Part shown: positions 20,201 through 45,126 of the stretch, piece after piece
Numbering within the stretch: position 1 is the first letter of the stretch
Layout of the letters: every line of letters starts with the position of its first letter
From: Pseudovibrio sp. Ad37
GTDB taxonomy: Bacteria > Pseudomonadota > Alphaproteobacteria > Rhizobiales > Stappiaceae
Assembly: GCF_001623075.1 (NCBI RefSeq)
Contig: NZ_LMCF01000027.1
Coordinates: forward strand, 1-48,791
Reading direction: 5' to 3'
DNA: 48,791 nt
The notes under the pieces: generated by a model
Databases searched by the model: none
Seen by the model: the letters and a program-made list of their open reading frames with translations, nothing else
What the model was told of the DNA's origin: nothing
Program-made: the position numbers and the translations under genes

Positions 20201-21181
20201 TTCAATCGCGCTGTTGCCCAGATTGGACGCGCTTGAAAATTGAACTTCTGTGCCATCAATGTCCGTTCCACCGGTCCAAGAATTGTTGCCCGACAGAATG
20301 GTTACACCATTGCCTGCAAACCGGAGGGCTCCGTTCCCAGTAATGTCGCCTACGAGATTGAAATTGCCTGAAGAGGTTGTAATGAAGTTAGCGTCACTTG
20401 CTTCTGGCCCATCCACAACAAGAATGTCTCCATCAATAGTTGTGCTTCCGATTGCTGTGATACTGCCACCGGTAAACTCAAACTGGCCTTGCCCGGCAGA
20501 GTTCGTGTTAATGAACTCGACGTTGGCTCCTTCATCAACGCTCATCTTGCCTCGAAACAGCTTGTTGTTGGAGGTAAGTCGCGTAGTTCCTTCTTCAAAA
20601 TAGATATCACCGGCACCATCTTCGGCAGAGGCGAGCTGAGCAATAATATGTTCACCTCCACTACTGGTCGCATTAAAGACCACTGTCGCGCCATCGAAGA
20701 AGATCAAGTCTCTTGCTTCAATTAAGCCCGGTGTTGTTGCTGGGTCACCGAGTTCTCCGCCAATATTAATCGTCCCGCCGCTGCCAATGACAATGCTGGT
20801 TGGCGAGGCTAGGAAACTACCATTGTCTGAAAGGTTGAGAGTTCCCTGATTTACAGAAGTCCCAATCTGGAGCGAAAAGACTGAACCGGTTTGCACCATG
20901 GAAGCGCTATCAGTGATATTCACAACTCCGTTGGCATTGATCTGCCCGATACCTACGAAATCGCTGAAGTTGACTGTTTCACCCTGAGAGATATTTAACG
21001 TTCCGTCAGTCCCAAAGCCCACATAAATGCCGTTGGTCGCATCTATGACGTCTGGTGGTACGTTTACGGTTCCCGTGACAATCTCCTGAGCAGGAGCTAA
21101 ACTGATGGTGACGGCAAGCAGGCAGGCAAACGCAAGGCCCGCAAGTACAGTTGTTCCGAAAAGACGCTCACTATACCACAT
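17249..21181 (-). CDS. autotransporter (type V secretion) with repeat-rich passenger
   Basis: Large outer-membrane autotransporter, 1310 residues from the start at 21181, which has GAGGG five bases upstream; the frame reaches 21268 but without a ribosome site. The signal peptide covers residues 1 to about 31 and ends in SLAPAQ. The passenger is Gly/Ser/Thr/Asn-rich with many beta-helix repeats of the PATR type: KLGAGTLVLGG, NLQGDNNFSGGL, TLTGTNSSWTGD, FLKNGAGTFIL. The C-terminal beta-barrel (about 1035-1310) starts near NFAMWGQVYGSWG and ends in the aromatic LFVQY. A surface adhesin role is likely. The adjacent Rrf2 gene is on the same strand upstream, but a 340-bp gap argues for a separate promoter. 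Confidence 0.9.
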   Translation of the reverse strand: MWYSERLFGTTVLAGLAFACLLAVTISLAPAQEIVTGTVNVPPDVIDATNGIYVGFGTDGTLNISQGETVNFSDFVGIGQINANGVVNITDSASMVQTGSVFSLQIGTSVNQGTLNLSDNGSFLASPTSIVIGSGGTINIGGELGDPATTPGLIEARDLIFFDGATVVFNATSSGGEHIIAQLASAEDGAGDIYFEEGTTRLTSNNKLFRGKMSVDEGANVEFINTNSAGQGQFEFTGGSITAIGSTTIDGDILVVDGPEASDANFITTSSGNFNLVGDITGNGALRFAGNGVTILSGNNSWTGGTDIDGTEVQFSSASNLGNSAIELNSGHLTFTGSSATINNLIDLDGTSSIEVGTNDTLTVSNDISGSGRLKKLGAGTLVLGGAGSSFSGGLDLAAGTVEFGAAANIGTGDVLFYGGDLSYISGTDATIANDFKMHDDGTLDVQSGRTLTLTGDITDGGGTPGALTIGSGGTVNLQGDNNFSGGLIVQENSSVEFNDPDRLGLGTTTLNNGNLLYQGSTDVNLSRIAIASGTSNTIDIDDNTVNLEISSNLSGSGNLSIDGGQTTTLTGTNSSWTGDLGVTDTELIFSDGTNIGNGNVGITLNSSTLTYTGGSTVTINELAFSGAGNVVGTTDIVGQINIMSGLTGSDQVTFTGPGEVNLLGDNSGYTADIEIDTGTLGLEGFSTSAIGSGNVIVNGGTLFYLGTGSETVDTTKLQVSSNDNTIDMANAGATLTWTGDATPGGGTFLKNGAGTFILSDGTKSLVSSTINGGTMRIGTSLTDSSTLSGDLTVNADGRLEGYGTASGSVTLNGGIIAPGASFGTITLGSLDATGTGGTLEMEIGSDPVSGMANADQIQILAGGSVDLNDVALDLVNVMGPTPVKIGDEFVIIDNLSAPGTEPPTGTFSSVSHDMFMLDVNVLYGIPGDGNDVAIQFIRSSNNFNGLADTRNEHSVTLALDTINESGDLFTQLAPMNNAQIKALLDPLAGEINASTRAILLADSRFLRQAVNDRLYKAHSAFAADVDDDTVSRTVSNFAMWGQVYGSWGQFFSDGNARTTGRSVGGVLVGVDAIYFDMVQLGVVAGFGRTSIDISSIDASSDSDSYSVGGYASANPIDNVKLRGGVAGTWYNIATDRDVSLFPEETLSSDQFAGSVQVFGELGYTLESTYGNLEPFAGVAYAYLSGPGFNETGGAAALKADGQSNSLTFLTLGTRGEFDLSNYLYGDTSFVGLAAWQYSSADTLDYTQSFIDSGNPFTVASVPIARNVALIETGLESRLAEHIQLNINYYGLLADQTLDHGANARLFVQY

Positions 21182-21522
21182 TTCAACCCTCACACATTTG
21201 CCAGCTACAGCAGTTCTGAGACAGTTGTTCGGTCGAGCACAGCCGTTACCAAAGGCTGCGCAGTGCAAAACGCAGCTTCAGTTTGAGTAATCACATTAGT
21301 AATCCGTTAAGATTTCTTCGCGCTACACAATTATGCTGTATTCGACTAAGGAGCTACGAAGTGATACGCAATACTCTTCTCATGAGCTATAGATTAACTG
21401 AATCGAATATAGTTATTAATAGAGTTTTTATTTGTTAAATTAGATTTAATTGTGAATTCAATATAGGATTGGTCAAATATACGAATGAGAAGGTCAATAG
21501 TGTCTACGAAGTATTCTTCCTG
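21182..21522. other. AT-rich promoter region of the autotransporter
   Basis: 340 bp separating two minus-strand genes. The stretch around 21400-21480 is very AT-rich and probably holds the autotransporter promoter. No hairpin terminator for the Rrf2 gene and no coding sequence were recognised. Confidence 0.4.
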
Positions 21523-29812: not shown

Positions 29813-30491
29813 CTCTTGTCTCATTGCCAATGGCGCGTTTGAGTTGCATGCCAATTTATACGTTGAAGCTGGCAACAGCGTCGCCGTTATTGGCCCCTCC
29901 GGCGCAGGGAAATCAACTCTGCTTGAGGCCATCGCTGGATTCCGCGAGATATCGCAGGGGCAGCTTTTCTGGAAAGAAGGTGAGCTCACCAAACAGGTTC
30001 CGGGAAAACGCCCAATCGCCATGCTGTTTCAAGATGGCAACCTGTTTCCTCACTTAACTGCCGCCCAAAACGTGGCTCTTGGTTTGCGGCCTAACGGAAG
30101 GCTCTCAAAGCCTGAGCAAGAGCAAGTCACAGCAGCTCTTTCACGGGTTGGACTGGCAGCTATGGGAGAACGTAAGCCAGCTGAGCTATCCGGTGGCCAA
30201 CAAAGCCGCGTCGCGCTTGCACGCGTTTTGGTTCAGCACCGTGATCTGTTGTTACTCGACGAGCCCTTCGCTGCCCTCGGCCCTGCTCTTAAGGCCGAAA
30301 TGCTGGATCTTGTCGCGGAGCTCATCGCAGAAACTGGCACGACGCTTCTTATGGTCAGCCACGACCCACAAGACGCCCGCCGCATCACGAACAAAGCAAT
30401 CCTCGTCGCCGACGGATCAGCGCACCCACCTGCTGAAACCCAACAACTTCTCGACAACCCACCGCAAGCATTGCGAGAGTATTTGGGGTAG
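29799..30491 (+). CDS. thiQ: thiamine ABC transporter ATP-binding protein
   Basis: ATPase that powers thiamine import, 230 residues, normal for ThiQ. Walker A is GPSGAGKST, the signature is LSGGQQSRVALAR, Walker B is DLLLLDEPFAALG and the switch His is in SHDPQDA. The start overlaps thiP. Last gene of the riboswitch-controlled operon; only six bases separate it from the convergent DUF1330 gene. Confidence 0.93.
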   Translation: MLKLNSCLIANGAFELHANLYVEAGNSVAVIGPSGAGKSTLLEAIAGFREISQGQLFWKEGELTKQVPGKRPIAMLFQDGNLFPHLTAAQNVALGLRPNGRLSKPEQEQVTAALSRVGLAAMGERKPAELSGGQQSRVALARVLVQHRDLLLLDEPFAALGPALKAEMLDLVAELIAETGTTLLMVSHDPQDARRITNKAILVADGSAHPPAETQQLLDNPPQALREYLG

Positions 30492-30497
30492 GGGAAC

Positions 30498-30788
30498 TTA
30501 CTCCATTCCCTCAACGATCATGATATCCGCCAGAGCTGCGGTTTTGCGGTGGGTTTTGGCTTCTTGGTATTCTGGGGAGTGGTAGCAGGCCAGGGCTTGT
30601 TCCATGGTGTCGAATTCGATGACGACATTGCGGGGATGTGTGGTGCCTTCCAGGTGTTCGGTTTTTCCGCCGCGGGCGAGGAAGCGGGCGCCGTATTTTT
30701 GGAAGGCGGCTGGAGCGGCCTGGGTGTAGTTTGTGTAGGCGTCAGCGTCCGTGACTGTGACGTGGGCAATCCAGTAGGCTTTAGGCAT
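30498..30788 (-). CDS. DUF1330 family protein
   Basis: 96 residues, a small cytoplasmic ferredoxin-like fold protein of the DUF1330 group, recognised from KAYWIAHVTVTDADAYTNY, GGKTEHLEG and VVIEFDTMEQALACYHSPEY. Its start overlaps the GntR stop by one base (TAATG), so it is translated with the regulator. Biochemistry is not established for the family. Its pairing with a catabolic regulator suggests an accessory role in the adjoining betaine pathway. Confidence 0.88.
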   Translation of the reverse strand: MPKAYWIAHVTVTDADAYTNYTQAAPAAFQKYGARFLARGGKTEHLEGTTHPRNVVIEFDTMEQALACYHSPEYQEAKTHRKTAALADIMIVEGME

Positions 30789-31486
30789 TATTTTTCGCTT
30801 TTACTCAGCTCTGCAGTCAGAAGGGTTTTGGCAATATTTGCGGCTTCCGTCAGGTGTAACTGAATGGCAGCTGCAGCGGCTTGAGGGTCGTTTGTGTCGA
30901 TTGCAGAGAAGATTTTTTCGATCCGCTTGTAACCTGCATCATGGCGGTCACGAGTACCCAAAGTCATTGCGCGCAGACGGCTGATGCGGCCGTTGAGTCG
31001 CTGTACCACTTCCCATGCAACGTTTTGGCCGCTGATATCAAAAATGCACTGATAGAATAATGTTGTTGCTTCAAACAGGTCGTTTGTTTCGCCACTGCTG
31101 TAGGCCAACTTAAGCTGAGCGAGTGCTTTGCCAAGTTTTTTCTTATCCCCATCTTTGGCCAGTTCTGCGCATTTTTGTGCGGCGCTGGTCTCCAAAAGCA
31201 TACGGATTTCGTAGATCTGTTGCGCGTTTTCCCAATCCAGTTTTGCAACAATCGGGCCTTTGTTTGGGAGTATCTCAACAAGGCCTTCTGCTTCAAGATA
31301 TCGGATTGTTTCCCTTACAACTGAACGGCTTACACCAAGCTGGTCGCAGAGCGGACGCTCGACTAGGCGGTCACCTGACTGGAAGTGGCCGGCAATGATA
31401 GCGGCTCTCATTTTCTCAAGAGCCATATCGCGGAGCGTCATAGTAGGACGCTCAATCTTTAAAGGATTATTTGCAGTAGAGATCAT
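30788..31486 (-). CDS. GntR-family (FCD) regulator of the adjacent catabolic cluster
   Basis: 232 residues. The N-terminal winged helix has GDRLVERPLCDQLGVSRSVV followed by RETIRYLEAEGLVE. The C-terminal helical FCD effector domain spans about 90-225, with LLETSAAQKCAEL and the metal/ligand-type histidine in RDRHDAG. Start 31486 is taken; ATG 31438 is possible because neither has a clear ribosome site. It is divergent from the tgn-like operon across a 111-bp gap holding a perfect palindrome. FCD regulators are usually repressors released by a pathway metabolite. The probable counterpart is TgnR. Confidence 0.85.
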   Translation of the reverse strand: MISTANNPLKIERPTMTLRDMALEKMRAAIIAGHFQSGDRLVERPLCDQLGVSRSVVRETIRYLEAEGLVEILPNKGPIVAKLDWENAQQIYEIRMLLETSAAQKCAELAKDGDKKKLGKALAQLKLAYSSGETNDLFEATTLFYQCIFDISGQNVAWEVVQRLNGRISRLRAMTLGTRDRHDAGYKRIEKIFSAIDTNDPQAAAAAIQLHLTEAANIAKTLLTAELSKSEK

Positions 31487-31528
31487 GGCAGCAATCTAGC
31501 TCGCGTTGACTTCATTCGCAAGAAGGTA

Positions 31529-31560
31529 TTGACATACGGTATTATGGTATACCATCTTAT
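31529..31560 (+). promoter_or_regulatory. promoter with GntR-type palindrome
   Basis: TTGACA at 31529-31534 is a consensus -35 element. The perfect 12-bp palindrome ATGGTATACCAT at 31544-31555 overlaps the spacer and -10 zone, with TCTTAT after it. TGGTATACCA-like sites are typical of FadR-type GntR repressors, so binding of the 30788-31486 product would block the operon that starts at 31598. Confidence 0.65.
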
Positions 31561-31597
31561 CACCATTGAATTTGACAGTGGAATGAACGGAAGACCA

Positions 31598-32206
31598 ATG
31601 CCAGCAGAGATACGCAAGACACTTCTTCACGTGGAAGACACGCTGATTGAAGGTGGCAAGAAAGCAGAGACCCCATTGCGGATGATTGCGGCAGTTGCTG
31701 TTGTCAAGAACCCATGGGCTGGGCAGGGCTTTGTTGAAGATCTGCGTCCGGGCATCCATGATGTTGCACCAGATGTTGGCAAGTTGCTGACGGATATGAT
31801 CATCAACTTCGCAGGTTCTGGTGAGGCTGTTGAAGGATACGGCAAGGCAGCTGTTGTTGGTGTGAATGGTGAAGTTGAGCATGCCTCCGCGCTCATTCAC
31901 ACGCTGCAATTTGGCAATTTTTACCGTGAAGCTGTTGGCGCCAAAACCTATCTGGCGTTCTGTAACACCCGCGCTGGTGTAAACGCTCCGATCATGATTC
32001 CGCTGATGGACAAGAATGACGGTGGCCGCCGTTCACACTATCTCACCATTCAGCTTGCTATTCCGGATGCACCGGGTCCAGATGAAATCGTCATCGCACT
32101 GGGAGCGTCACTCTCAGGACGCCCGCACCACCGGATTGGTGATCGTTATCAGGACCTTAAGGAGTTGGGACATGACGTTGACAACCCTGCAGCTGTCACA
32201 TCCTAA
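31598..32206 (+). CDS. amino acid synthesis family protein (DUF1185)
   Basis: 202 residues, start 31598 (MPAEIRKTLLHVEDTL) with GGAAGA just upstream. The sequence MPAEIRK..HVEDTLIEGG, VAVVKNPWAG, VEHASALIHTLQFGN and NTRAGVNAPI matches the DUF1185 'amino acid synthesis' family, whose activity is not established. It is the first gene of the catabolic operon and overlaps the hydrolase by 35 nt. The published trigonelline pathway includes a conserved hypothetical protein assisting the last step; this is one candidate, an inference from position only. Confidence 0.85.
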   Translation: MPAEIRKTLLHVEDTLIEGGKKAETPLRMIAAVAVVKNPWAGQGFVEDLRPGIHDVAPDVGKLLTDMIINFAGSGEAVEGYGKAAVVGVNGEVEHASALIHTLQFGNFYREAVGAKTYLAFCNTRAGVNAPIMIPLMDKNDGGRRSHYLTIQLAIPDAPGPDEIVIALGASLSGRPHHRIGDRYQDLKELGHDVDNPAAVTS

Positions 32207-32978
32207 GGGCACAGTTTGCTACCGTGAGGTTGGCGAAGGTGAGCCGCTTGTGCTGGTCCACGGGGTTGGCATGCAGGATGCTTCTTGGGAACCGCAAATC
32301 GAGCACTTTGCGAAAACGCATCGTGTTATTGCGGTAAACATGCCGGGGCATGGAGGAAGCACTGCGCTTCCTCAAGGCTCTCAGTTGGAAGATTATGTAG
32401 CGTGGCTGCATGCGACGATCTCAGCGCTTGGATTTGAACAGGTGAATCTTGCCGGTCACTCCATGGGTGCATTGATCAGCGGTGGTTACGCAGCAACGTA
32501 CCCGGAACGCGTAAAACGCGTTGCTTTGTTGAACGGTGTTTACCGCAGATCTCCTGAAGCTCGCAGTGCTGTGGAGGCGCGGGCTAAGGAAATCGCAGAG
32601 GGCAACATCAACATCGACGGACCTTTGAGCCGTTGGTTTAGTGAGAGCACTGCGGATCAGCAGGCGAAAGAAAAAGTCGGCAAATGGCTCCGGGAGGTTG
32701 ATCCGGTTGGCTATGCAGTCACTTACAACGCATTTGCACATGGGGACGTGACCTATGCTGACAAATGGAAGGAAATCAGATGCCCGGCGCTTTTGCTGAC
32801 GGGTGATGGTGATCCGAACTCCACCAAGGAAATGGCGGTGGATATGGCCAAGGCAGCGCAGGACGGCATGGTCTGCATCATTGAAGGCCATCGTCATATG
32901 GCCAATCTGACAGCACCGGAACAAGTCAACGCCGCAATGGCAAGCTGGTTAAAACAGCCAATAAGAACAAACGGATAG
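32172..32978 (+). CDS. tgnD: alpha/beta hydrolase, TgnD-like (MFMS hydrolase)
   Basis: 268 residues, start ATG 32172 with AAGGAG upstream, overlapping the DUF1185 gene. It has an oxyanion region LVLVHGVGMQDASW (27-40), nucleophile Ser97 in LAGHSMGAL, acid near Asp212/Asp214 in LLLTGDGDPNS and catalytic His242 in GHRHMAN. By cluster context it would split the N-methylformamido-methylene succinate intermediate into CO2, methylamine, formate and succinate semialdehyde, as TgnD does in Acinetobacter. The fold is certain; the specific reaction is inferred. Confidence 0.75.
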   Translation: MTLTTLQLSHPKGTVCYREVGEGEPLVLVHGVGMQDASWEPQIEHFAKTHRVIAVNMPGHGGSTALPQGSQLEDYVAWLHATISALGFEQVNLAGHSMGALISGGYAATYPERVKRVALLNGVYRRSPEARSAVEARAKEIAEGNINIDGPLSRWFSESTADQQAKEKVGKWLREVDPVGYAVTYNAFAHGDVTYADKWKEIRCPALLLTGDGDPNSTKEMAVDMAKAAQDGMVCIIEGHRHMANLTAPEQVNAAMASWLKQPIRTNG

Positions 32979-32995
32979 AAAGGGGGATCTACCCG

Positions 32996-33913
32996 ATGAC
33001 AGCGATGGACCCACGTACATTGAGGAATGCATTTGGTACATTCCTTACCGGTGTTACGGTTGTGACAGCCCACGGCCAGGATGGTGAGCCGCTTGGCTTT
33101 ACAGCAAATTCCTTTTCAAGCGTTTCTCTGGATCCGCCATTGTTGCTGGTGTGTCTTGCGAAGAGCTCCAGCAATTATGATGCGTTGACTGATGCATCCG
33201 GTTTTGCTGTCAATATTCTGGCAGAAACCCAGAAGGATGTGTCCAACACCTTTGCCAGCCGTGTTGAAGACCGTTTTGCGACTGTTGACTGGAAAGTTGG
33301 TCCTCACGGGTCGCCGGTTCTTTCCGATGTTGCTGCGTGGTTTGATTGCTCAATGCACAATGTGGTGGACGCGGGTGACCATGCAATTCTGATTGGTGAA
33401 GTAAAGGCTTTTGAGACCGGTGTTGCCAATGGTCTGGGTTACGCACGCGGTGCATATTTTACTGCCACACAAGAAGTCAGTTCCATTCAGGTAGATAGTG
33501 AAACCGTTGTGAGCGCTCTCTTGGAACGAGACAAAAAAGTGCTGTTTTTTGAAGATGATGCAGGCCAACTGCGATTGCCAACGCGCAATGTCAGCAAAGG
33601 CACACCAACCAAAGAACTTACAGCATTACTGGAAGAGGTCGGTGTCCCGTCTTCTGTCGGCTTCATTTACTCCGTCTACGAAGATGAAGAAGCGAATGCC
33701 CAGCATCTGGCTTTCCATTGCTCAGCCGGTGAAGGGGCCAGCCAGTCTGGAAACTTCCTTGCTTTGACAGATGATGTGCTGGCGCGCGTACAGGATGCTG
33801 CCACACAGAAAATGCTGGGCCGGTTTGCGAAGGAGACTCAGAAGGGCAATTTCGGCATCTATTTTGGAAATCATGAAAACGGCGAAGTGCGCAAAATCGC
33901 ACTGGGAGAGTAA
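32996..33913 (+). CDS. tgnB: flavin reductase with C-terminal extension, TgnB-like
   Basis: 305 residues. The N-terminal half (1-165) is a flavin reductase domain of the HpaC type: RNAFGTFLTGVTVVTA, GFTANSFSSVSLDPPLLLVCL and ANGLGYARGAYF. It uses NAD(P)H to supply reduced flavin to the oxygenase encoded next. A second domain of about 140 residues follows (VSALLERDKKVLFFEDDAG to the end). It is not in simple reductases and slightly recalls a Nudix-like or regulatory module. GGGGG upstream supports the start. Gene order and partner match the two-component trigonelline oxygenase TgnAB. Confidence 0.78.
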   Translation: MTAMDPRTLRNAFGTFLTGVTVVTAHGQDGEPLGFTANSFSSVSLDPPLLLVCLAKSSSNYDALTDASGFAVNILAETQKDVSNTFASRVEDRFATVDWKVGPHGSPVLSDVAAWFDCSMHNVVDAGDHAILIGEVKAFETGVANGLGYARGAYFTATQEVSSIQVDSETVVSALLERDKKVLFFEDDAGQLRLPTRNVSKGTPTKELTALLEEVGVPSSVGFIYSVYEDEEANAQHLAFHCSAGEGASQSGNFLALTDDVLARVQDAATQKMLGRFAKETQKGNFGIYFGNHENGEVRKIALGE

Positions 33914-33916
33914 GCC

Positions 33917-34963
33917 ATGAAATTTTCACTTTTCATCCATCTTGAGCGCATTTCCGCTGATGAGAGCCAGCAAAAGCTCTATGACGAGTTTCTGCAGCTT
34001 TGTGAGATTGCAGACAAAGGCGGCATGCATGCGATCTGGACTGGTGAACACCATGGCATGAACTTCACCATTGCGCCGAACCCTTTCATCAACCTTGTAG
34101 ATCTGGCACGGCGGACCGAAAATGTACGTCTTGGAACAGGAACTGTCATCGCCCCTTTCTGGCATCCAATCAAGCTGGCTGGCGAAGCAGCTATGGCGGA
34201 TATCATTATGGATGGCCGTCTTGAGCTGGGTATTGCTCGTGGTGCCTACAGTTTTGAATATGAACGCATGATCCCGGGCCTTGATGCGTGGGAAGCTGGT
34301 CAGCGCATGCGCGAGTTGGTTCCTGCCGTCAAAAAGCTCTGGGATGGTGATTATGCTCATGAAGGTGAGTATTGGCAGTTCCCGAAAACGACATCTGCAC
34401 CACAACCAATGCAGGATCCGCACCCACCTGTCTGGGTTGCTGCGCGTGATCCAAACTCCCATGATTTCGCTGTGGCGCATGGTTGTAACGTGCAGGTTAC
34501 GCCGCTTTGGAACGGCGACGATGAAGTTGAAAGCCTCATGGAGCGCTTCAACGATGCTTGTGAGAAGAGCCCGTCTGTTCCACGCCCGAAAATTATGTTG
34601 CTGCGCCACACCTATGTTGGTGGTGATGAAGCGGATGTTCAGCAGGGTGCTGAAGAGGTCAACCGTTTCTACAACTACTTTGGTGCATGGTTCAAAAACG
34701 AACGCCCAATCACTCAGGGTCTTATTGAGCCGCTCAGCGACGAAGATATTGCGAACCACCCCTTCTACAGCGCGGAGCAGATGCGTACCAACAATGTGAT
34801 CGGTACGTCTGACAAAGTCATCGAGCGCCTGAAGCACTACGAAGACCTTGGCTACGATGAATACTCATTCTGGATTGATAGCGGCATGACGTTTGAGCGC
34901 AAGAAAGCCTCTCTTGAACGCTTCATCAATGAAGTGATGCCTGCTTTCCAAAAGGATGCATGA
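33917..34963 (+). CDS. tgnA: luciferase-like flavin monooxygenase, TgnA-like ring-opening oxygenase
   Basis: 348 residues, LLM-class TIM barrel using reduced flavin and O2. Typical stretches are MKFSLFIHLERIS, IWTGEHHGMNF, VRLGTGTVIAPFWHP and ELGIARGAYSFEYERM. It lies three bases after the reductase gene and overlaps the aldehyde dehydrogenase start (ATGATG over the TGA). In the trigonelline pathway TgnA with TgnB cleaves the C5-C6 bond of the N-methylpyridinium ring directly. Assignment rests on family plus a matching gene set; homarine or another N-methyl heterocycle remains possible as the substrate. Confidence 0.78.
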   Translation: MKFSLFIHLERISADESQQKLYDEFLQLCEIADKGGMHAIWTGEHHGMNFTIAPNPFINLVDLARRTENVRLGTGTVIAPFWHPIKLAGEAAMADIIMDGRLELGIARGAYSFEYERMIPGLDAWEAGQRMRELVPAVKKLWDGDYAHEGEYWQFPKTTSAPQPMQDPHPPVWVAARDPNSHDFAVAHGCNVQVTPLWNGDDEVESLMERFNDACEKSPSVPRPKIMLLRHTYVGGDEADVQQGAEEVNRFYNYFGAWFKNERPITQGLIEPLSDEDIANHPFYSAEQMRTNNVIGTSDKVIERLKHYEDLGYDEYSFWIDSGMTFERKKASLERFINEVMPAFQKDA

Positions 34964-36429
34964 TGAAACGCTTCCAGCACTATATCGATGGTCGTTTTGA
35001 AGATGGCTCAGCGCAATTTCAAAGTCTGGACCCGGCAACAGGTCAGCCTTGGGCAGAAATGCCCGAGGCGCGGACTGAGGATGTAAACCGTGCTGTTGCT
35101 GCAGCTGAGCGGGCTTTCTTTGATCCTGCCTGGAGCAGCCTGACAGCAACACAGCGCGGCAAGCTGCTTTACAAACTGGCAGATCTGGTTGAGGCGAATG
35201 CGCCTAAGCTGGCACAGTTGGAAACGCAGGACACCGGGAAGATCATCCGCGAAACATCTGCCCAGGTGGCATATGTAGCGGACTACTATCGGTATTATGC
35301 TGGCTTGGCAGATAAGATTGAAGGGGCTCACCTTCCAATCGACAAGCAGGACATGGAAGTCTGGCTACGCCGTGAACCTGTTGGTGTGGTGGCTGCCATT
35401 GTTCCGTGGAATAATCAGTTGTTCCTGTCCGCTGTTAAGATTGGCCCTGCACTGGCTGCCGGCTGTACGTTGATTGTGAAAGCGTCTGAAGAAGGACCTT
35501 CACCGCTTTTGGAGTTTGCCAAGCTGATTGAAGAAGCTGGTTTCCCGAAAGGTGTGGTCAACATCATCACCGGGTTTGGTGCCGAATGCGGACAGGTGCT
35601 GACATCGCATCCGTCCGTGGCTCATGTCGCGTTTACTGGCGGACCGGAAACTGCAAAGCACATCGTGCGCAATTCTGCGGAAAACCTTGCCAGCACGTCG
35701 CTAGAACTGGGCGGCAAATCTCCGTTTATTGTGTTTGAAGATGCTGATATCGACAGCGCCGTAAATGCGCAGATATCCGGCATTTTTGCAGCAACAGGCC
35801 AAAGCTGTGTTGCAGGTTCTCGTCTGATCATCGCAAAAAGCATCAAGGACGAGTTTCTTGCTCGTTTGAAGGCCAAAGCTGAAGCCGTCGTCATCGGGCA
35901 TCCGCAGGATATGGCAACAGAGGTTGGCCCTTTGTGCAGTCAGCGCCAGCGCGATCACATTAATGCAGTGATCAAAGCTTCTGTTGACGCTGGTGCGACG
36001 GTGCTGACCGGTGGTGTGGATTGCGATCGTGATGGCTTCTACTTCCCACCAACCATTCTGGATTGCTCAAAGGTGCCGAATGCCCCTTGTGTGACAACCG
36101 AACTGTTTGGCCCAGTGCTTTCTGTTCTCACTTTTGAGACAGAGGCTGAAGCCCTGCAGATGGCGAACGATACAAAATTTGGCCTGGCTTCCGGCATCTT
36201 TACGCAAAGCCTGACGCGGGCACATCGCATGATAAAGGGCATTCGCTCCGGCATCGTGTGGGTGAACACCTATCGCGCAGTTTCCCCTGTTGCTCCGTTT
36301 GGTGGACAGGGACTTTCCGGCCATGGCCGCGAAGGCGGACTGCAGGCAGCCTTGGATTACACAACAGTCAAAACAGTTTGGTTGCGCACCTCTGATGATC
36401 CGATACCGGACCCATTCGTTATGCGCTGA
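34960..36429 (+). CDS. tgnC: aldehyde dehydrogenase, TgnC-like (MFMB dehydrogenase)
   Basis: 489 residues, NAD(P)-dependent aldehyde dehydrogenase with the N-terminal cofactor motif VPWNNQ, general base Glu249 in LELGGKSPF and nucleophile Cys283 in GQSCVAGSR. The start overlaps the monooxygenase stop, so it is tightly coupled. In the trigonelline scheme this enzyme oxidises the hydroxybutyrolactone (masked aldehyde) product of ring opening to the succinate derivative. The family is certain and the substrate is from context. Confidence 0.78.
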   Translation: MMKRFQHYIDGRFEDGSAQFQSLDPATGQPWAEMPEARTEDVNRAVAAAERAFFDPAWSSLTATQRGKLLYKLADLVEANAPKLAQLETQDTGKIIRETSAQVAYVADYYRYYAGLADKIEGAHLPIDKQDMEVWLRREPVGVVAAIVPWNNQLFLSAVKIGPALAAGCTLIVKASEEGPSPLLEFAKLIEEAGFPKGVVNIITGFGAECGQVLTSHPSVAHVAFTGGPETAKHIVRNSAENLASTSLELGGKSPFIVFEDADIDSAVNAQISGIFAATGQSCVAGSRLIIAKSIKDEFLARLKAKAEAVVIGHPQDMATEVGPLCSQRQRDHINAVIKASVDAGATVLTGGVDCDRDGFYFPPTILDCSKVPNAPCVTTELFGPVLSVLTFETEAEALQMANDTKFGLASGIFTQSLTRAHRMIKGIRSGIVWVNTYRAVSPVAPFGGQGLSGHGREGGLQAALDYTTVKTVWLRTSDDPIPDPFVMR

Positions 36430-36539
36430 GAACAGGGAGAACCCCATCCGTAGCTCCTGTTCAGCAGGGGTTGGAGATAAGCCGGTGGTGAAACCCGGCA
36501 TGGACACAATGTCCGATTAATTTAGCCTGGGAGGGAACT

Positions 36540-38213
36540 ATGGCTATCGAAAAAGAGCACATTCAGAAAGATCTGAATGTTGCCGAAACGGGGCTCTTTA
36601 AGGGCTTGCACAACGGAATGTCGATCGCGGCCAAGGCTATGGTTGCGGCATTTGTTGTGTTCACGATTTTGAATGTTGATTATGCTGGTGAGCTGTACGG
36701 GGCGGTACGCAGCTGGGTCGAAACAGCGCTGAGCTGGTACTACATCTCCTCAGTCATGATCATCTTCTTCATTTGCATTGGCTTGATGGTCAGCCGATTT
36801 GGCTCCATCCGTCTGGGTGATGATGATGCACGTCCGGAATTCAGCAACTTTGCATGGTTTGCAATGCTGTTTTCCGCAAGTGTATCCATCGGTATCATGT
36901 TCTTTGGTGTTGCTGAGCCGTTGTTCTACTTCGACAACTCCGCTGGTTGGGGTTACCCGAACAACCCGTTTGCGGATATGGCTGGCCACAATGAAATGAA
37001 CATGGACCGAGCAGTAGATGCGGTTCGCGTGACCAACTTCCATTGGGGTCTGCATGGTTGGGCGATTTACACCATCACCGGTCTTTGCCTCGCATACTTC
37101 TCATTCCGCAAAAAGCTGCCGCTGACATTCCGTAGCGCGCTTTACCCGATCCTTGGCGAGCGCATCTATGGTCCGGCTGGTCATGCTGTTGATCTGCTTG
37201 CCGTGTTTGGCACCGTATTCGGCATCGCGACGTCCATGGGGCTTGGCGTAAATCAGATGGCACAGGGCCTGAACGTGCTGTTTGGTGTTGATCCGGGCAC
37301 GCTTACTCAGATCGCTTTGGTTATCGGTATTTCCATTGTGGCGACACTGTCTGCTGTCTCTGGCATTGGTAAGGGTATTCGTATTCTTTCCGAATGGAAC
37401 ATCGCTCTAACACTGCTGCTGATCCTGTTCTTTGTTGTAGCAGGTCCATCTCAGTGGCTGGCAAGCTTCTTCCTCACATCCGTTGGCGATTACATGTCCC
37501 ACTTCCTGTCCATGGGCTTCTGGACTGCAAGTGAACCAGGTGATGTGAAATGGCAGGGCGGCTGGACCATGTTCTACTGGGGCTGGTGGCTTTCCTGGGC
37601 ACCATTCGTGGGCATGTTCATTGCACGCATCAGCCGCGGTCGTACCATTCGTGAGTTTATGTTCGGCGCTATGCTTGTGCCAACCGTGATGGCCTTCCTC
37701 TGGATCACCATTTTTGGCGGCAATGCACTGTTCATCGAAATGAATGCGCCAGGCGGTGTTGGTACTGCAGGTCTGATTGATACCGTCAACAGTTGGAACC
37801 TTGGTGGCGCGCTCTATGGCACCATTGAGCAGATGACCTCTAATGGCACAATCAGCTGGTTGATTGCAGCACTCACCACCTTCTTGCTGGCGACATGGTT
37901 TATCACGTCGTCCGACTCCGGCACTTTGGTTATCACGACCATCCTGTCTATGGGCAATGCACACCCACCTAAACAGCACCGTGTGATCTGGGGTGTTGCT
38001 CAAGGTGTTGTTGCTGCGGCGCTCTTGTTGGCTGGTGGATTATCCGCTCTGCAAACTGCTGCTATTGCGGCTGCCTTGCCGATCAGTGCTCTTGTGGTTC
38101 TCATGTCATGGGGAATTGTGAAGTCGCTCATGCAAGATTCAAGTGCAGTGAGAGACCCTCATGAAGAGGTTGCTCCGGACGGAACTGCGCTGGACCGTGA
38201 ACTGCGAGCCTAA
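36540..38213 (+). CDS. BCCT-family betaine transporter
   Basis: 557 residues, about twelve transmembrane segments. Family signature in the region WTMFYWGWWLSWAPFVGMF then IARISRGRTIREF; WHWGLHGW-like NFHWGLHGWAIYTITG is also typical. Start 36540 has GGGAGG. It lies between the aldehyde dehydrogenase and the semialdehyde dehydrogenase, inside the catabolic block. BCCT carriers move zwitterionic quaternary ammonium compounds (glycine betaine, carnitine, choline), which fits trigonelline or homarine as cargo. A strong terminator follows the gene. Confidence 0.93.
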   Translation: MAIEKEHIQKDLNVAETGLFKGLHNGMSIAAKAMVAAFVVFTILNVDYAGELYGAVRSWVETALSWYYISSVMIIFFICIGLMVSRFGSIRLGDDDARPEFSNFAWFAMLFSASVSIGIMFFGVAEPLFYFDNSAGWGYPNNPFADMAGHNEMNMDRAVDAVRVTNFHWGLHGWAIYTITGLCLAYFSFRKKLPLTFRSALYPILGERIYGPAGHAVDLLAVFGTVFGIATSMGLGVNQMAQGLNVLFGVDPGTLTQIALVIGISIVATLSAVSGIGKGIRILSEWNIALTLLLILFFVVAGPSQWLASFFLTSVGDYMSHFLSMGFWTASEPGDVKWQGGWTMFYWGWWLSWAPFVGMFIARISRGRTIREFMFGAMLVPTVMAFLWITIFGGNALFIEMNAPGGVGTAGLIDTVNSWNLGGALYGTIEQMTSNGTISWLIAALTTFLLATWFITSSDSGTLVITTILSMGNAHPPKQHRVIWGVAQGVVAAALLLAGGLSALQTAAIAAALPISALVVLMSWGIVKSLMQDSSAVRDPHEEVAPDGTALDRELRA

Positions 38214-38236
38214 TCCGACTTAACGGAAAATGAACG

Positions 38237-38268
38237 GAATGGGGGCCACATCTGGTCCCCATTCTTTT
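38237..38268 (+). terminator. rho-independent terminator after the BCCT gene
   Basis: GAATGGGGGCCA and TGGTCCCCATTC form a 12-bp stem (one G-T pair) around CATC, then TTTT at 38265-38268. It separates the ring-cleavage and transport genes from the succinate-semialdehyde dehydrogenase gene, implying partial termination or a separate promoter for the latter. Confidence 0.82.
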
Positions 38269-38321
38269 CCGGCGTGATGACTATGCCGATGTGACAACAA
38301 TGAAGGACAAAGGGTGCCGCC

Positions 38322-39773
38322 ATGGACCTGAAACTGAACAACCCAAGCCTGTTGCAATCCGGTGCATATATCGATGGCAGCTTTGTTTCGCGCCAGAAAA
38401 CCTTTGCAGTCAACAACCCCTCTACAGGTGAACTGATTGCCAATGTTACAGATTGCTCGCGCTCTGATGTGGTCGATGCCATCAACGCCGCAAAGACTGC
38501 GCAAAAAGCATGGGGCAAGCGCACAGGCAAGGACCGCGCGCAGGTTCTGAGACGCTGGTTCGACTTGCTGATTGAGAATGCTGATGACCTCGCGGTTATC
38601 CTGACCGCAGAAATGGGGAAGCCAGTTGCAGAAGCAAAAGGTGAGATCCTTTACGGCGCCAGCTTCATTGAATGGTTTTCGGAAGAAGCAAAGCGCGTTT
38701 ACGGTGATACTATTCCGGGCCATCAGGAAGACAAACGTATCATGGTGATCAAGCAACCTGTTGGGGTTGTTGGTGCTATCACACCATGGAACTTCCCCAA
38801 TGCCATGATCACCCGCAAAGCTGCGCCTGCACTGGCTGCTGGCTGTGCCATGATTGTAAAACCTGCCGCTGAAACACCTCTTTCCGCATTGGCGCTGGCA
38901 TTGCTGGCCGAGCAGGCAGGCATCCCGAAAGGCGTGCTGAGCATTCTGCCATCGACGGATGCAGTCGCCGTTGGTGAAGAGCTGTGCACCAACGAGATTG
39001 TCCAGAAGATTAGCTTCACTGGCTCCACAAATGTTGGCCGCATTCTCATGCGTCAAAGTGCTGACCAGATTAAGAAGCTCTCCCTGGAACTGGGCGGCAA
39101 CGCACCGTTTATCGTGTTTAATGATGCGGATCTGGATAAGGCTGTTGAAGGGGCTTTGATTTCTAAGTTCCGCAATGCAGGTCAAACCTGCGTCTGCTCC
39201 AACCGTATCTATGTACAGGACGGTGTTTATGACGCCTTCGCCAACAAACTTGCAGATGCAGTTCGTAATCTGAATGTTGGAGATGGATTCCAGTCCGGCG
39301 TAACCATCGGGCCCCTCATCACAGAAGCCGCCGTTCACAAAGTGGAATCCCACATCAAGAACGCACTTGAAAACGGCGCAAGTATTGTGTGCGGTGGTGA
39401 GCGCAGTGACAAGGGCGGCACCTTCTTTGAGCCAACCGTTCTTGCCAATATGACGAGTGATATGGACGTGGCAAGAGAAGAAACCTTCGGCCCGCTTGCC
39501 CCACTGTTCCGCTTCAAGGAAGTTGATGAAGCTATAGCAGCAGCGAACGATACCGAGTTCGGCCTTGCCTCCTACTTCTACAGCAATGATCTCTCCACAG
39601 TCTACAAAGTGGCGGAAGAGTTGGAATACGGCATGGTAGGTGTCAACACCGGTCTGATCTCCACTGAAGTTGCACCATTTGGCGGCGTCAAGCAATCCGG
39701 ACTTGGCCGCGAAGGCTCCAAGTACGGCATCGAAGATTATGTTGAGATGAAATACATCTGCATCAGCGTTTAA
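38322..39773 (+). CDS. tgnE: succinate-semialdehyde dehydrogenase, GabD/TgnE-like
   Basis: 483 residues, close to GabD: TPWNFPNAMITRKAAPALAAG, base Glu256 in LELGGNAPFIVF, nucleophile Cys290 in NAGQTCVC, and C-terminal GVKQSGLGREGSKYGIEDY. It oxidises succinate semialdehyde to succinate, feeding the TCA cycle. AAAGGGTG upstream supports the ATG at 38322. In the trigonelline pathway this is the last step (TgnE); an independent GABA-shunt role (gabD) is the alternative, but no GABA transaminase is nearby. Confidence 0.88.
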   Translation: MDLKLNNPSLLQSGAYIDGSFVSRQKTFAVNNPSTGELIANVTDCSRSDVVDAINAAKTAQKAWGKRTGKDRAQVLRRWFDLLIENADDLAVILTAEMGKPVAEAKGEILYGASFIEWFSEEAKRVYGDTIPGHQEDKRIMVIKQPVGVVGAITPWNFPNAMITRKAAPALAAGCAMIVKPAAETPLSALALALLAEQAGIPKGVLSILPSTDAVAVGEELCTNEIVQKISFTGSTNVGRILMRQSADQIKKLSLELGGNAPFIVFNDADLDKAVEGALISKFRNAGQTCVCSNRIYVQDGVYDAFANKLADAVRNLNVGDGFQSGVTIGPLITEAAVHKVESHIKNALENGASIVCGGERSDKGGTFFEPTVLANMTSDMDVAREETFGPLAPLFRFKEVDEAIAAANDTEFGLASYFYSNDLSTVYKVAEELEYGMVGVNTGLISTEVAPFGGVKQSGLGREGSKYGIEDYVEMKYICISV

Positions 39774-39787
39774 GAGAGAAAACAAGA

Positions 39788-40165
39788 ATGTCTGACCGGT
39801 TTGAAAAAGGCCTGAAACAACGCAAAGCAACCCTTGGCGCTGACTATGTAGAGGCCAACCTGGCAAAGGCGGACGACTTCAATCGTCCGTTTCAGGAAGC
39901 CATGACCGAATGGTGCTGGGGTTTCGGCTGGGGAGATGACGCTATCGATGCACCAACTCGCAGTCTGATGAATCTGGCCATGATCGGCGCTCTCGGAAAA
40001 ATGCACGAATGGGAATTGCATTGTAAAGGCGCGCTGCGCAACGGCGTCACCAAAGAACAAATCCGCGCCGCCTGCCACATCGTAGCCATCTACGCCGGCG
40101 TCCCCGCCGGAGTAGAATGCTTCCGCAGTGCAAGAAAGGTACTGGAAGAGGCGGGGGAGTTGTAG
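39788..40165 (+). CDS. carboxymuconolactone-decarboxylase (CMD/AhpD-like) protein
   Basis: 125 residues, all-helical CMD family. The motif MNLAMIGALGKMHEWELHCKGALRNGVTKEQI is recognisable in parts: ALGKMHEWELH and RNGVTKEQIRAACH. Cys appears as single residues (ECFRS), without the AhpD CxxC pair, so a peroxidase role is unlikely. It follows the semialdehyde dehydrogenase by 14 bases and precedes a terminator, so it is the last gene of the block. Possible roles are decarboxylation or lactone handling of a pathway intermediate; not known. Confidence 0.85.
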   Translation: MSDRFEKGLKQRKATLGADYVEANLAKADDFNRPFQEAMTEWCWGFGWGDDAIDAPTRSLMNLAMIGALGKMHEWELHCKGALRNGVTKEQIRAACHIVAIYAGVPAGVECFRSARKVLEEAGEL

Positions 40166-40441: not shown

Positions 40442-41950
40442 ATGCGTCGTGGATACGCGGTTGTGGCTGGGCTTGCGATTGTAGCAAGTGTTTCGGCTGG
40501 GCTAGGGATCTTTATTGGAAGTTCGATGGACTGGACTTCTGCTGGACCAGGCAGTGCTGAAAGTGAAATCTTGTATTGGGTTGCGCCGATGGACCCAAGT
40601 TTCCGGCGTGATGCACCTGGAAAATCTCCCATGGGGATGGACCTCGTTCCCGTTTATGCAGGGCAGGATGCGATGCAATCCGGGAGTTCTGTTGTGTTGT
40701 CTCCAAATGTGATTAACAGCATCGGTGTACGCACGGCCACCGCCAGCGTTGAGCCTATCTCAGAGAAAATCGAAAGTGTTGGGTTTGTTGGCTATGACGA
40801 GTATGGCTCCAGTTAGGTTCATTTACGCACGGAAGGGTGGATCAAGAAACTCAACATCCGTGCAATTGGTGACCCCGTTAAGAAGGGAGATCTGCTTTTC
40901 ACTGTCTATGCGCCAGAGGTGACTGTGGCGAGTGCTGATCTGATCCGGGCCGTGCGCCGGAATGATAAGCAAGCCGAGCAGAATATCCGAATCCAGCTTC
41001 AGAATTACGGTATTGATAGCGCCCAGATTGACGAGATGGCTCGGGCGAATACTCCGGCTAGGGTCTTCAAGGTGTACGCTCCTCAATCCGGCGTGGTGAC
41101 CACGTTGGAAGCGGCGGATGGTATGTACCTGCAACCGGATTCTATAGCGCTTACCCTATCTGATATGTCCTCTGTGTGGTTGATGGTGGATGTGTTTGAG
41201 CAGGACATTGCCCGTCTGAGCAAAAACAGCGATGTGCTTGCGAGCTTTGAGCATCTGCCCGGGCAAGTGCTTGAGGGCCGCATCGATTATATCTACCCGG
41301 AACTGGATGCGGTGACACGCACACTGCCGGTCCGTCTGCATTTTGACAACTCAGAGGGTGTTTTACGTCCAAATATGTTTGGCCGCGTAACCATCATCCC
41401 ATCTGAAATGCGACGTGCAGTGACAATTCCAGCCAGCGCGCTGATCCGTACAGGTTCATCTGATCGGGTTATCCTGCAAACTGAGGAGGGCACGTTTCAG
41501 CCACGCATGGTGACGCCGGGCCTGACGGGGCGTTTTGGAGGAGGGAGCAGGACCGAGATCTTACAGGGGCTTGAAGCAGGGGAAGAAGTCGTAACCTCCG
41601 CTCAGTTTCTGATTGATAGTGAGAGTTCACTTTCGGCGGGCGTGGCCCGCATGTCTTCTGCGCAAGACGGTCCCATCTGGGTTAATGGCACAGTGACTAA
41701 TTTCGATGCTGAGACAAACTCCGTCACTATTCGACATGATGCCATTGAGGAGTTGCAGTGGCCAGCGATGGAAACAACGTTTGCGGTCCGTGCAAACCTG
41801 AAGAACCATGCATTCCAATATGATAGGCCTATTGAGTTTGCTATCTCAAAGGGGTCTGACAAGCGCTTCAGCCTTGTCGATCTGCGAGATGTCAAAGATC
41901 AAGCTTCAAAAACAGCACCTGCTGACACGGTGGGGGCCGTTGAAAAATGA
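40442..41950 (+). pseudogene. cusB: CusB-like periplasmic adaptor interrupted by an in-frame TAG
   Basis: Membrane-fusion subunit of a Cu/Ag RND efflux pump. One frame runs 502 codons, broken only by TAG at 40814-40816 (codon 125, between EYGSS and VHLRTEGW). Before it are an N-terminal anchor and a heavy-metal-binding segment (YWVAPMDP..APGKSPMGMDLVPVY). After it come the adaptor domains (GDPVKKGDLLFTVYAPE, GVVTTLEAADGMY) and a C-terminal CusF-like domain (SVTIRHDAIEELQWPAM) keeping His, Trp and one Met of the metal site, the second Met being Thr. It overlaps cusA by ATGA. If TAG is not read through, the pieces are 124 residues and at most 344 residues (from GTG 40919). Confidence 0.85.
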
Positions 41951-44900
41951 TTGGCTCCATCATACGTGCATCCATCAGGAACCGCGTGATCGTGCTCATG
42001 GCCGCTGTGATGCTGACACTTGGCGGCATCTGGGCGCTGAAAGAAACACCGGTTGATGCAATTCCGGATCTGTCTGATGTGCAGGTCATTATCAAAACCC
42101 CTTATGACGGGCAAGCCCCTCAGGTCATTGAGGATCAGGTAACTTATCCGATCGCTACAGCCATGCTGTCGGTGCCGGACGTGATCGACGTGCGTGGGTT
42201 CTCGTTTTATGGCGATTCCTACGTCTATGTTGTCTTTAAAGACAGCACAGACCTTTATTGGGCCAGAAGCCGGGTGTTGGAATACCTTGCTCAGGTTGGA
42301 GCCCAACTACCTGAAGGCGTGACGCCTGAACTGGGTCCAGATGCGACAGGAGTTGGCTGGATTTTTCAGTACGCCCTGATTGACCGGACCGGTCAACATG
42401 ATCTGGCACAGCTGCGCTCTTTACAGGACTGGTGGTTGAAGTATGAGCTTCAAACTGTCAGCGGCGTGTCGGAAGTGGCAACCATCGGCGGTATGGTCAA
42501 GCAGTATCAGGTGGTCGTTGATCCCAACAAACTACGAGCCTATGGCGTGACATTGCCTGCTCTCATGAGCACGATCCAGAACGCGAACCGCGAGACCAGC
42601 GGCAGTGTGATTGAGATGGCAGAAGCGGAGTACATGGTCCGTGCAACCGGGTACATCCAATCTATTGAGGATCTTGAGCAAATCCCGATCAAGGTGAATG
42701 AGCGTGGTGCAGCTCTCACCCTGAGCGATGTGGCAGACATCCGCCTTGGTCCGCAAATGCGCCGTGGTGTGGCTGACCTGAACGGCGAAGGCGACTCCGT
42801 TGGGGCCGTTGTCATTATGCGCTGGGGTGAAAACCCGCTGAGAACACTTGAGGGTGTGCATGCCAAGCTGGAGGAGCTGAAACCGAACCTGCCTGAAGGC
42901 GTGGAGATTGTGACCACCTATGACCGGGCTGGGGTGATTGAGCGAGCAATTGATAACCTAACCACCAAACTCTCAGAGGAGTTTCTGGTCGTGGTTCTGG
43001 TGTGTGCAGTGTTTCTCCTGCATCTCAGATCTTCATTGGTCATTTTGATTTCGCTTCCTCTTGGCATTTTGACGGCACTGCTGGTGATGCGTCTGCAAGG
43101 GGTGAATGCGAACATCATGTCCCTTGGCGGGATCGCTATCGCTATTGGAGCGATGGTTGATGCGGCCATTGTGATGATTGAGGCCATGCATCGACGGCTT
43201 GAGAAGGAACCGAAACCCGATAAGAACCGCTGGAAGATTGTCGCCGAATGCTGTTCCGAGGTTGGACCAGCTCTGTTCTATTCACTGGCGATTATCACCA
43301 TCAGCTTTCTGCCGGTGTTTGTGCTGGAAGCGCAGGAAGGTCGTCTGTTCAAGCCGCTTGCGTTCACTAAAACCTATGCCATGGCGGCTGCGTCCATTCT
43401 CAGCATCACGCTTGTACCGGTACTGATGGGATATTTTGTGCGAGGACACATTCATCCTGAGGCGAAGAACCCGGTCAATCGGTTGTGCATCGCCTTGTAC
43501 CGGCCCGCACTTGCAGGCGTGATTGCCTGGCCCAAAACAACGATCATCTTTGCGCTGGTTCTGGTTGCGTCCATTCTTGTGCCGCTGAACCGGATTGGGT
43601 CTGAGTTCATGCCGGAGTTGAAGGAAGGTGACTTTCTTTACATGCCGTCACTGTACACCGGTGTTTCTATTGGTAAGGCGCGTGAGGTACTTCAGCAGAC
43701 GGACCGTATGATCATGCAGGTGCCTGAGGTAAAGACCGTTCACGGCAAACTTGGACGCGCTGAAACAGCAACAGATCCAGCTCCACTGACCATGTTTGAG
43801 ACCACCATTTAGCTCAGACCGCAAGATCAGTGGCGTGAAGGGATGACGCTTGAAAAGATCCGTCAGGAGCTGGACAAGTCAGTTCAGGTTCCGGGCCTTA
43901 CAAACGTCTGGATCCAACCGATCAAGAACCGCATTGATATGCTTGCAACTGGTATGAAAACACCTGTCGGCGTCAAAGTGTCGGGGCCGGACCTGCAGGT
44001 CATTCAAGACATTGCAGTGAAGATTGAAGGCCTCGTGAAAGGCGTTGAGGGGACGCTGTCCTCTTACGCAGAGCGACCAAGAAGTGCGCGCTTTATTGAA
44101 ATCGACATCGATCGGAATGCAGCCGCTCGCTATATGCTGAATATCAAGGATGTTCAGGATGTGGTGCAAACCGCGATTGGCGGAATGGATATTGCTGAAA
44201 GCGTTGAGGGTTTGGAGCGATACCCCATCAATCTGCGCTATCCTCAGGATTGGAGAAACAGCCCGGATCAACTTGAGAAGCTCCCTGTTGTGACACCATC
44301 AGGTGCGCATATTCCGCTTGGAGCTGTCTCTGATATCAACATTGTTGACGGCCCTGCTATGATCCGCTCAGAGAATGCGCGACCAACAGGTTTTGTTTTC
44401 ATTGATATCGAGGGACGAGACCTTGGCGGTTATGTCAGCGAAGCACAAGAACTGGTCGCTTCCGAAGTTAAAATCCCTGCTGGCTACTCGATCACATGGT
44501 CAGGACAGTATGAGTATATCGAGCGTGTTCAGGAACGCTTGCAACTGGTTGCACCGGTAACATTGTTGATCATTACCCTGATGCTTTTCCTCGCATTCAA
44601 CCGCGTGGGTGAAGTGGCAATCATCTTGACCTCCCTGCCAGTCGCGCTGACAGGCGGTGTCTGGTTTGTCTACACCTTAGGGTTTGACTTGTCGGTTGCC
44701 GTACTGGTCGGTTTCATTGCGCTGGCAGGCGTGGCTGTCGAAACAGCCATCGTGATGCTGTTGTACCTGAACCTTTCCTGGGACAAGCGCGTGGCGTTTG
44801 CCCGGAAAGAACACAAGGTCCTCACCGCAAAAGATATCCTTGATGCTGTTGTCGAGGGTGCCCTGTTACGATTGCGGCCAAAAGTGATGACCGTGGCAAC

Positions 44901-45126
44901 CATCTTTGCCGGGTTGATACCGATCATGCTGGGCAGTGCAACAGGCTCAGAGATCATGAAACGGATTGCAGCCCCAATGGTTGGCGGCATGATCACCGCA
45001 ACACTGCTGACTCTCTTCGTTATTCCGGCAATTTATGTGCTTTGGAAGAGAGCCCGACTATCTGCCTTGAATAAAATCACCGCAGAAGAAGCCAGTGAAA
45101 GTCTGGAGAAAACAAAGACTAAGTGA
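41947..45126 (+). pseudogene. cusA: CusA-like RND copper/silver efflux pump interrupted by an in-frame TAG
   Basis: Inner-membrane RND pump. The frame is 1060 codons, the normal CusA length, with one internal TAG at 43810-43812 (codon 622). In E. coli CusA the aligned stretch is ETTIQLKPQEQWRPGMT; here it is ETTI-stop-LRPQDQWREGMT, so the stop sits exactly on a Gln codon (CAG to TAG). The N-part has the first periplasmic domain and TM segments ([34 protein letters not shown]). The C-part has PINLRYPQDWR, ENARPTGFVFID and LRPKVMTVATIFAGLIPI. No cusC is in the window. Restart at ATG 43843 would give only the C-terminal half. Confidence 0.88.

Follow-up and report, generated by a model that had tools for sequence, protein, structure and literature searches.

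The contig NZ_LMCF01000027.1 of Pseudovibrio sp. Ad37, which we refer to as the window (the whole 48.8 kb contig, from an assembly of 5.88 Mb in 224 contigs), carries at positions 30498–40165 a block of ten intact genes that very probably forms a catabolic cassette (tgn) for trigonelline, a methylated compound that occurs in plants and plankton. Pfam and NCBIfam profile scans of the window proteins place genes for a DUF1330 protein and a GntR regulator on the minus strand and, diverging from them, genes for a PF06684 protein, an alpha/beta hydrolase, a flavin reductase, a luciferase-like monooxygenase (LLM), an aldehyde dehydrogenase (ALDH), a BCCT carrier, a succinate-semialdehyde dehydrogenase (SSADH) and a carboxymuconolactone decarboxylase (CMD) family protein. 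The genes and coordinates listed in a preliminary description of this DNA were thus correct, and all the genes named there were found intact.

The individual genes can be compared with two counterparts, namely a cluster on plasmid NZ_CP094644 of Acinetobacter sp. PK01, where RefSeq names tgnA, tgnB and tgnC, and an operon of S. meliloti. On the minus strand, the DUF1330 gene (30498–30788; PF07045, 130.7 bits against a cut-off of 23; 56% identity to the PK01 counterpart) is preceded by that of a GntR/FCD regulator (30788–31486; PF00392 and PF07729; 54% identity to the PK01 and 48% to the S. meliloti GntR protein), which is probably the tgn repressor. On the plus strand, the gene of the PF06684 (DUF1185, AA_synth) protein (31598–32206; 229.6 bits, scanned from 31601; 69% identity to PK01 and 76% to S. 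meliloti) starts with the ATG at 31598 and overlaps by 35 bp the gene of the hydrolase (32172–32978; PF00561, Abhydrolase; 54% and 56% identity, respectively), our candidate for TgnD. These are followed by the flavin reductase TgnA (Flavin_Reduct; 32996–33913; 47% identity over 295 aa to PK01 tgnA, which has the same position, and 53% to S. meliloti), the LLM TgnB (Bac_luciferase; 33917–34963; 74% over 344 aa to PK01 tgnB and 74% to S. meliloti pSymA) and the ALDH TgnC (Aldedh; 34960–36429; 72% over 489 aa to PK01 tgnC and 74% to S. meliloti), the last two genes overlapping by 4 bp. The BCCT carrier (36540–38213, +; TIGR00842, 465 bits against a cut-off of 408; PF02028, 567 against 27), the SSADH TgnE (38322–39773, +; TIGR01780, 732 bits against a cut-off of 646; 56% identity to PK01 and 66% to S. 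meliloti) and the CMD family protein (39788–40165, +; PF02627; 53% identity to the PK01 counterpart) complete the block. From the PF06684 gene through the ALDH gene, neighbors overlap or are separated by at most 17 bp, and the BCCT gene is flanked by gaps of ∼110 bp on each side. Residues 3–302 of the flavin reductase match the solved structure 3rh7 (E 1.5e-97), and the hydrolase matches 3kxp, an alpha-(N-acetylaminomethylene)succinate hydrolase, with E 5e-12, other structures being stronger and the esterase 4uhc (5e-18) the best. The window ALDH is only 35% identical to the PK01 SSADH, against the 72% to PK01 tgnC.

The gene order on the PK01 plasmid matches that of the window, running from the DUF1330 and GntR genes (both reversed) through PF06684, hydrolase, tgnA, tgnB, tgnC, a cytosine permease, a hypothetical protein and SSADH to CMD, with identities of 47–74% for TgnA–C and 54–69% for the counterparts of the hydrolase, the SSADH and the PF06684 protein. 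Because this cluster has the same order together with DUF1330, GntR, PF06684 and CMD genes, neither the gene order nor the small proteins of the window are distinctive. The preliminary description had read both as signs of a distinct version of the pathway; the three extra small proteins that it counted are probably the DUF1330, PF06684 and CMD proteins, all of which are also in the PK01 cluster. What stands of that proposal is the BCCT carrier, the one part that differs from PK01, and this carrier is also present in some Rhodobacterales. According to PMC7913881, TgnF of A. baylyi ADP1 is a homologue of that paper's PF06684-family protein and, as it cites from Perchat et al. 2018, stimulates the TgnE-dependent oxidation of succinate semialdehyde; with its 229.6 bits, the window PF06684 protein falls into this family and is a TgnF homologue. 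The LLM, for its part, does not, as far as these profiles show, fall among the alkanesulfonate- or EDTA-type oxygenases that the preliminary description had considered as competing best matches, as the SsuD profile gave 31.3 bits against a cut-off of 518.2 and the SfnG profile 54.8 against 382.95, none of the LLM models reached its cut-off, and there was no EDTA/NTA-type model among the 25 of 27 families listed.

A scan of genome contigs matched at least 590 stretches, of which 576 were confirmed and the best 80 kept, such that all counts out of 80 loci given here describe the closest relatives. At 78 of these loci, the 3.6 kb preceding the LLM gene contain, on its strand, the genes for the PF06684 protein, the hydrolase and the reductase (the exceptions are L078, where the reductase was not detected, and L075, whose contig is 3.3 kb long), and an ALDH match begins within 200 bp downstream at all 80, which argues that this association of genes is not due to chance. 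Within 10 kb of the LLM gene, a GntR gene is present at 77 loci and a DUF1330 gene at 34, several loci being short. An LLM of at least 57% identity occurs in 14 of the 385 genomes of the class sample (own genome included), and in the class of G387, for which 369 genomes were covered, two genomes carry an LLM at 73–74% (one of them the center itself) and two carry one at 64%. Closer to the window, 5 of 16 genomes of the genus, own included, have it at 97–100% identity, and among the 33 other members of the family a single LLM, a relative at 67%, exceeded the limit.

Between the GntR and PF06684 genes lies a perfect palindrome, ATGGTATACCAT (31544–31555), which, judging from its uniqueness and conservation, is likely the operator of the divergent GntR protein. 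An exact match to WTGGTATACCAW occurs once in the whole 5.88 Mb assembly, at this site. Among the best 80 loci minus L075, whose short contig stops ahead of the PF06684 gene, GGTATACC is found within 250 bp upstream of this gene at 65 of 79 loci, compared to five occurrences across their remaining 1.56 Mb, and TGGNATACCA, which has one free base, is found upstream of it at 77 of 79 (all except L084 and L090), with 28 matches of this pattern or its complement elsewhere in the 1.56 Mb. The carriers of TGGNATACCA are alpha-, beta- and gammaproteobacterial, and the palindrome is also present in Acinetobacter, Klebsiella and Paraburkholderia loci and, when near-duplicates are counted, in 70 of 74 divergent gene pairs. 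We note, however, that many of the loci are related, and thus that 77 of 79 does not correspond to 77 independent events. Directly ahead of the operator, TTGACA (31529–31534, +) is a probable −35 element whose spacing is kept across loci, as a TTGACA-like hexamer begins 16–17 nt before TGGNATACCA at 65 of the 77 loci, compared to a mean of 0.33 and a largest value of 3 of 77 in shuffled upstream 25-mers. Given this spacing, the operator would sit between the −35 and the predicted −10 element. A generic promoter scan gave 9 sites, compared to 6.3 in shuffles, and did not call the proposed promoter. Overall, the pattern is consistent with a one-site regulon whose putative repressor is the divergent GntR protein, and among the new results of our analysis we regard this conserved operator as the most useful.

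As to the substrate, the mapped trigonelline region of S. meliloti pSymA is the locus named trc. The operon orthologous to the window cluster is found on pSymA of strain 1021, with an LLM of 73–74% identity, and pSymB yielded only a remote LLM (E 2.5e-12); on the annotated pSymA of strain R28 (CP130049), the operon lies between nodL/noeB, with transposase genes intervening, and nifB/nifA. According to PMC4207669, wild-type S. meliloti grows on trigonelline and a strain without pSymA does not. Because the operon lies on pSymA between nod and nif genes, and given this lack of growth and the title of Goldmann et al., the S. meliloti cluster and the mapped trigonelline region coincide, and we infer that these very genes are the mutated ones of that region. 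The assignment of trigonelline is therefore supported by orthology, synteny and the published genetics of the replicon that bears the S. meliloti counterpart, and the trigonelline-type catabolic cluster proposed in the preliminary description is borne out by these genetics together with the synteny and identity to the RefSeq tgnA, tgnB and tgnC genes. By extension, trigonelline would also be the substrate in Pseudovibrio sp. Ad37.

Different carriers accompany the core genes. Within 5 kb behind the LLM gene and on the same strand, 41 of the 80 loci have an ATP-binding cassette (ABC) transporter, five an orthologous BCCT, five a cytosine-type permease and one another BCCT. In a tree of 26 BCCTs, the 14 located within or close to tgn clusters (from the window, four genus-mates, eight Rhodobacterales and one Competibacteraceae metagenome-assembled genome) form one clade with support of 100/100, apart from the other five of the six BCCTs of the own genome; the own genome is the only one whose further BCCTs are in the tree, and long branches make the deep joins unsure. 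The window BCCT has the motifs HWGLHGWAIY and WGWWLSWAP of the Trp/Tyr box, which in BetP binds the quaternary ammonium group. Of the 26 rows, our first expression for this box missed 8 at motif one and 7 at motif two, and L090, L102, L116 and L120, from among these rows, carry HWGFHGW variants. A trimethylamine transporter and a choline transport protein are, by name, the closest relatives of solved structure. In the papers that we consulted on trigonelline and on BCCTs, no pyridinium betaine was seen as a BCCT substrate and no link was made between trigonelline and a BCCT.

Based on its position and its clade, the BCCT is probably the trigonelline importer. It could instead be a general osmolyte carrier that merely lies within a tgn operon, as the genome has six BCCTs, clade members lie 5–9 kb off or on the other strand at four loci, and the familiar substrates of the family are glycine betaine, choline and similar compounds. 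However, the gene is located here between the ALDH and SSADH genes and is the next recognized gene behind that of the ALDH at five of the 80 loci, the 14 tgn-linked BCCTs form a clade of their own, separate from the other five of the genome, and in other clusters the ALDH gene is followed by a carrier of the ABC or cytosine type, such that we regard the osmolyte explanation as unlikely. From the organism names only, our impression is that the BCCT versions are marine and the ABC versions are from soil and freshwater. Taking the carrier and the operator together, we lean toward the view that a BCCT lineage has turned into a dedicated pyridinium-betaine carrier, travelling with the tgn genes in Rhodobacterales, the genus of the window and at least one gammaproteobacterial lineage, and that the GntR protein governs the whole pathway as a one-site regulon through a palindrome that is near letter-for-letter the same across alpha-, beta- and gammaproteobacteria.

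The pathway that we propose follows the chemistry of the tgn enzymes, helped by RefSeq product names (TgnC) and one statement on TgnF. External trigonelline would be imported by the BCCT carrier, after which TgnB, provided with reduced flavin by TgnA, would open the pyridinium ring oxidatively. The resulting hydroxybutyrolactone would be oxidized by TgnC to (E)-2-((N-methylformamido)methylene)succinate, which TgnD would hydrolyze to methylamine, formate, CO2 and succinate semialdehyde, the last being oxidized to succinate by TgnE, aided by TgnF. The divergent GntR protein would bind ATGGTATACCAT directly behind the −35 element and repress the operon, until trigonelline or an intermediate releases it. 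We note that sarcosine-oxidase-type genes flank some tgn clusters, at L179 (1453–8407, with purU and folD), L037 (1832–6851, four subunits) and L066, L074 and L079 (a subunit-beta match), and may serve methylamine or its C1 unit.

A number of observations weigh against a trigonelline pathway of this form. The link to TgnA–E of A. baylyi runs via RefSeq naming in its congener PK01, where the hydrolase and SSADH genes are without tgn names; the A. baylyi TgnB has the accession Q6F9F6 in a legend of PMC11354265. The backbone of the LLM tree (from which L132 was left out due to an in-frame stop) is not resolved and its bootstrap had not settled, and the smallest starred clade that unites the window with S. 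meliloti and PK01 tgnB spans 51 rows, among them diverged clusters with as little as 57% identity. In the clusters at 57–68% LLM identity inside this clade, the hydrolase is only ∼29–39% identical, and these clusters may use other substrates; by identity and synteny, the window belongs with the close group. The SSADH gene is within 10 kb of the LLM gene at only 27 of 80 loci and the CMD gene at only 11, some loci being short, and at 28 of the 80 none of the three carrier types was recognized on the LLM strand in the 5 kb after this gene, the four loci with a displaced BCCT described above being among these. A Pfam scan of one neighbor gene each at 9 of the 28 carrier-less loci and in the class genome L044 gave seven genes with non-carrier families and three without a family. 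As the palindrome also precedes the diverged clusters L202 and L203, the operator is no proof of the substrate. Finally, the own assembly has one soxA gene over the cut-off, beside soxB and gbcB-, soxG- and GbdR-like genes, that is, a locus of glycine-betaine type, and therefore no obvious N-methylglutamate dehydrogenase for methylamine, although mgd and gmaS were not searched for directly; the Mgd and Sox subunits are related.

The diverged relatives of the operon make substrate shifts plausible, and the cluster could accordingly act on a different N-methylpyridinium compound, homarine in particular, trigonelline then being a minor substrate or none. Homarine, which the preliminary description had placed beside trigonelline, exceeds the latter in seawater particles according to PMC8269262 (the homarine values were later corrected downwards), but the same paper argues that homarine ring opening is sterically hindered and the action of TgnAB on it unlikely, and it describes poorer growth of R. 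pomeroyi on homarine than on trigonelline. In addition, TgnB and TgnC are orthologous to the tgn genes at 72–74% identity, and Mgd is reported in homarine catabolism in PMC13390433, compared to the single soxA-type gene over the cut-off in this genome. We consider a homarine-type substrate to be very improbable. The R. pomeroyi megaplasmid, which was the only replicon searched, is without the LLM. The least credible explanation is that the operon serves the uptake and breakdown of another, larger precursor resembling γ-aminobutyric acid (GABA), as was reportedly proposed by White et al. in 2009 for the gts operon of R. leguminosarum 3841, as pRL10 of this strain does carry this operon, including genes for GntR, SSADH and an ABC transporter (L094), but the window cluster is without an ABC carrier, the idea is older than the tgn pathway, and a more complex precursor feeding succinate semialdehyde could well be trigonelline itself.

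Beyond the close group, diverged LLM clusters (39–69%) are found at L045–L053, L196–L198, L200, L202–L207 and L219, several with PF06684, ALDH and a diverged hydrolase and some with ABC, cytosine-type or BCCT carriers, and are perhaps sister pathways for other N-heterocycles. In Paraburkholderia (L096, L101, L103 and L125), a second set of flavin reductase (∼40%), hydrolase, GntR and related ABC transporter genes adjoins the tgn cluster.

The block is bordered by thiBPQ-like genes on one side (named from Ruegeria matches) and heavy-metal efflux genes on the other, and the plasmid DNA closest to the window is from Ruegeria, Sulfitobacter and Rhizobium. Because the genus-mate G1157 carries the block at a different place (L192, 4307–13976), the tgn block seems to move as one unit: 9.67 kb are aligned there at 96% identity (window 30486–40155), and the aligned stretch ends at both cluster ends. 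The thiBPQ-like and Cus-like neighbors were rejected as part of this unit, as the block of the genus-mate sits elsewhere without them, and a comparison of the 400 bp flanking the moved block at each end gave no convincing repeats. The L192 flank matches not thiBPQ and cus, but the region of an autotransporter gene of the window (88%), which encodes a beta-domain and passenger repeat (17249–21268, −). The CusB- and CusA-like efflux genes that adjoin the cluster (40442–45126) look broken, as a stop splits each into two in-frame pieces (40442–40816/40919–41950 and 41947–43812/43843–45126, respectively). Elsewhere in the window, 8987–13352 encode, in tandem, a fused phosphotransferase system (PTS) EIIA-HPr-EI protein and an EIIBC protein.

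The presence of trigonelline in seawater samples was reported in 2021 (PMC8269262), and a marker set combining TgnB with the BCCT clade and the ATGGTATACCAT operator would help to find trigonelline consumers in genomes. The BCCT assignment, if true, would add a new substrate class to a well-studied carrier family. Among the known systems, the S. meliloti pSymA operon shares with the window the series GntR, PF06684, hydrolase, reductase, LLM and ALDH as well as SSADH, at 48–76% identity, but has a NIPSNAP gene and an ABC transporter in place of the BCCT and a GntR gene that is not divergent, and DUF1330 and CMD had no match across the 49 kb surrounding it. The pRL10 operon of R. johnstonii (leguminosarum) 3841, named gts and reportedly published as a GABA transport operon, has the layout of S. 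meliloti and differs from the window in its ABC carrier. The cluster of Acinetobacter sp. PK01 (L179) agrees with the window in gene content and order, also for DUF1330, GntR, PF06684 and CMD, and in the operator sequence, but has a cytosine-type permease and a hypothetical protein at the position of the window BCCT. The tgn clusters of Rhodobacterales with a BCCT (Tritonibacter aquimaris, L057; Ruegeria lacuscaerulensis, L100; and L104, L105 and L132, the last with the interrupted LLM) have the same core, divergent DUF1330 and GntR genes and, behind the ALDH gene, an orthologous BCCT of 76–82% identity, but in four of them the CMD gene is upstream and on the other strand, and it was not seen in L100, whose SSADH gene is upstream. 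The pathway, its enzymes and its small proteins are thus already known, and it is the BCCT carrier that makes this cluster a new version, one shared with some Rhodobacterales.

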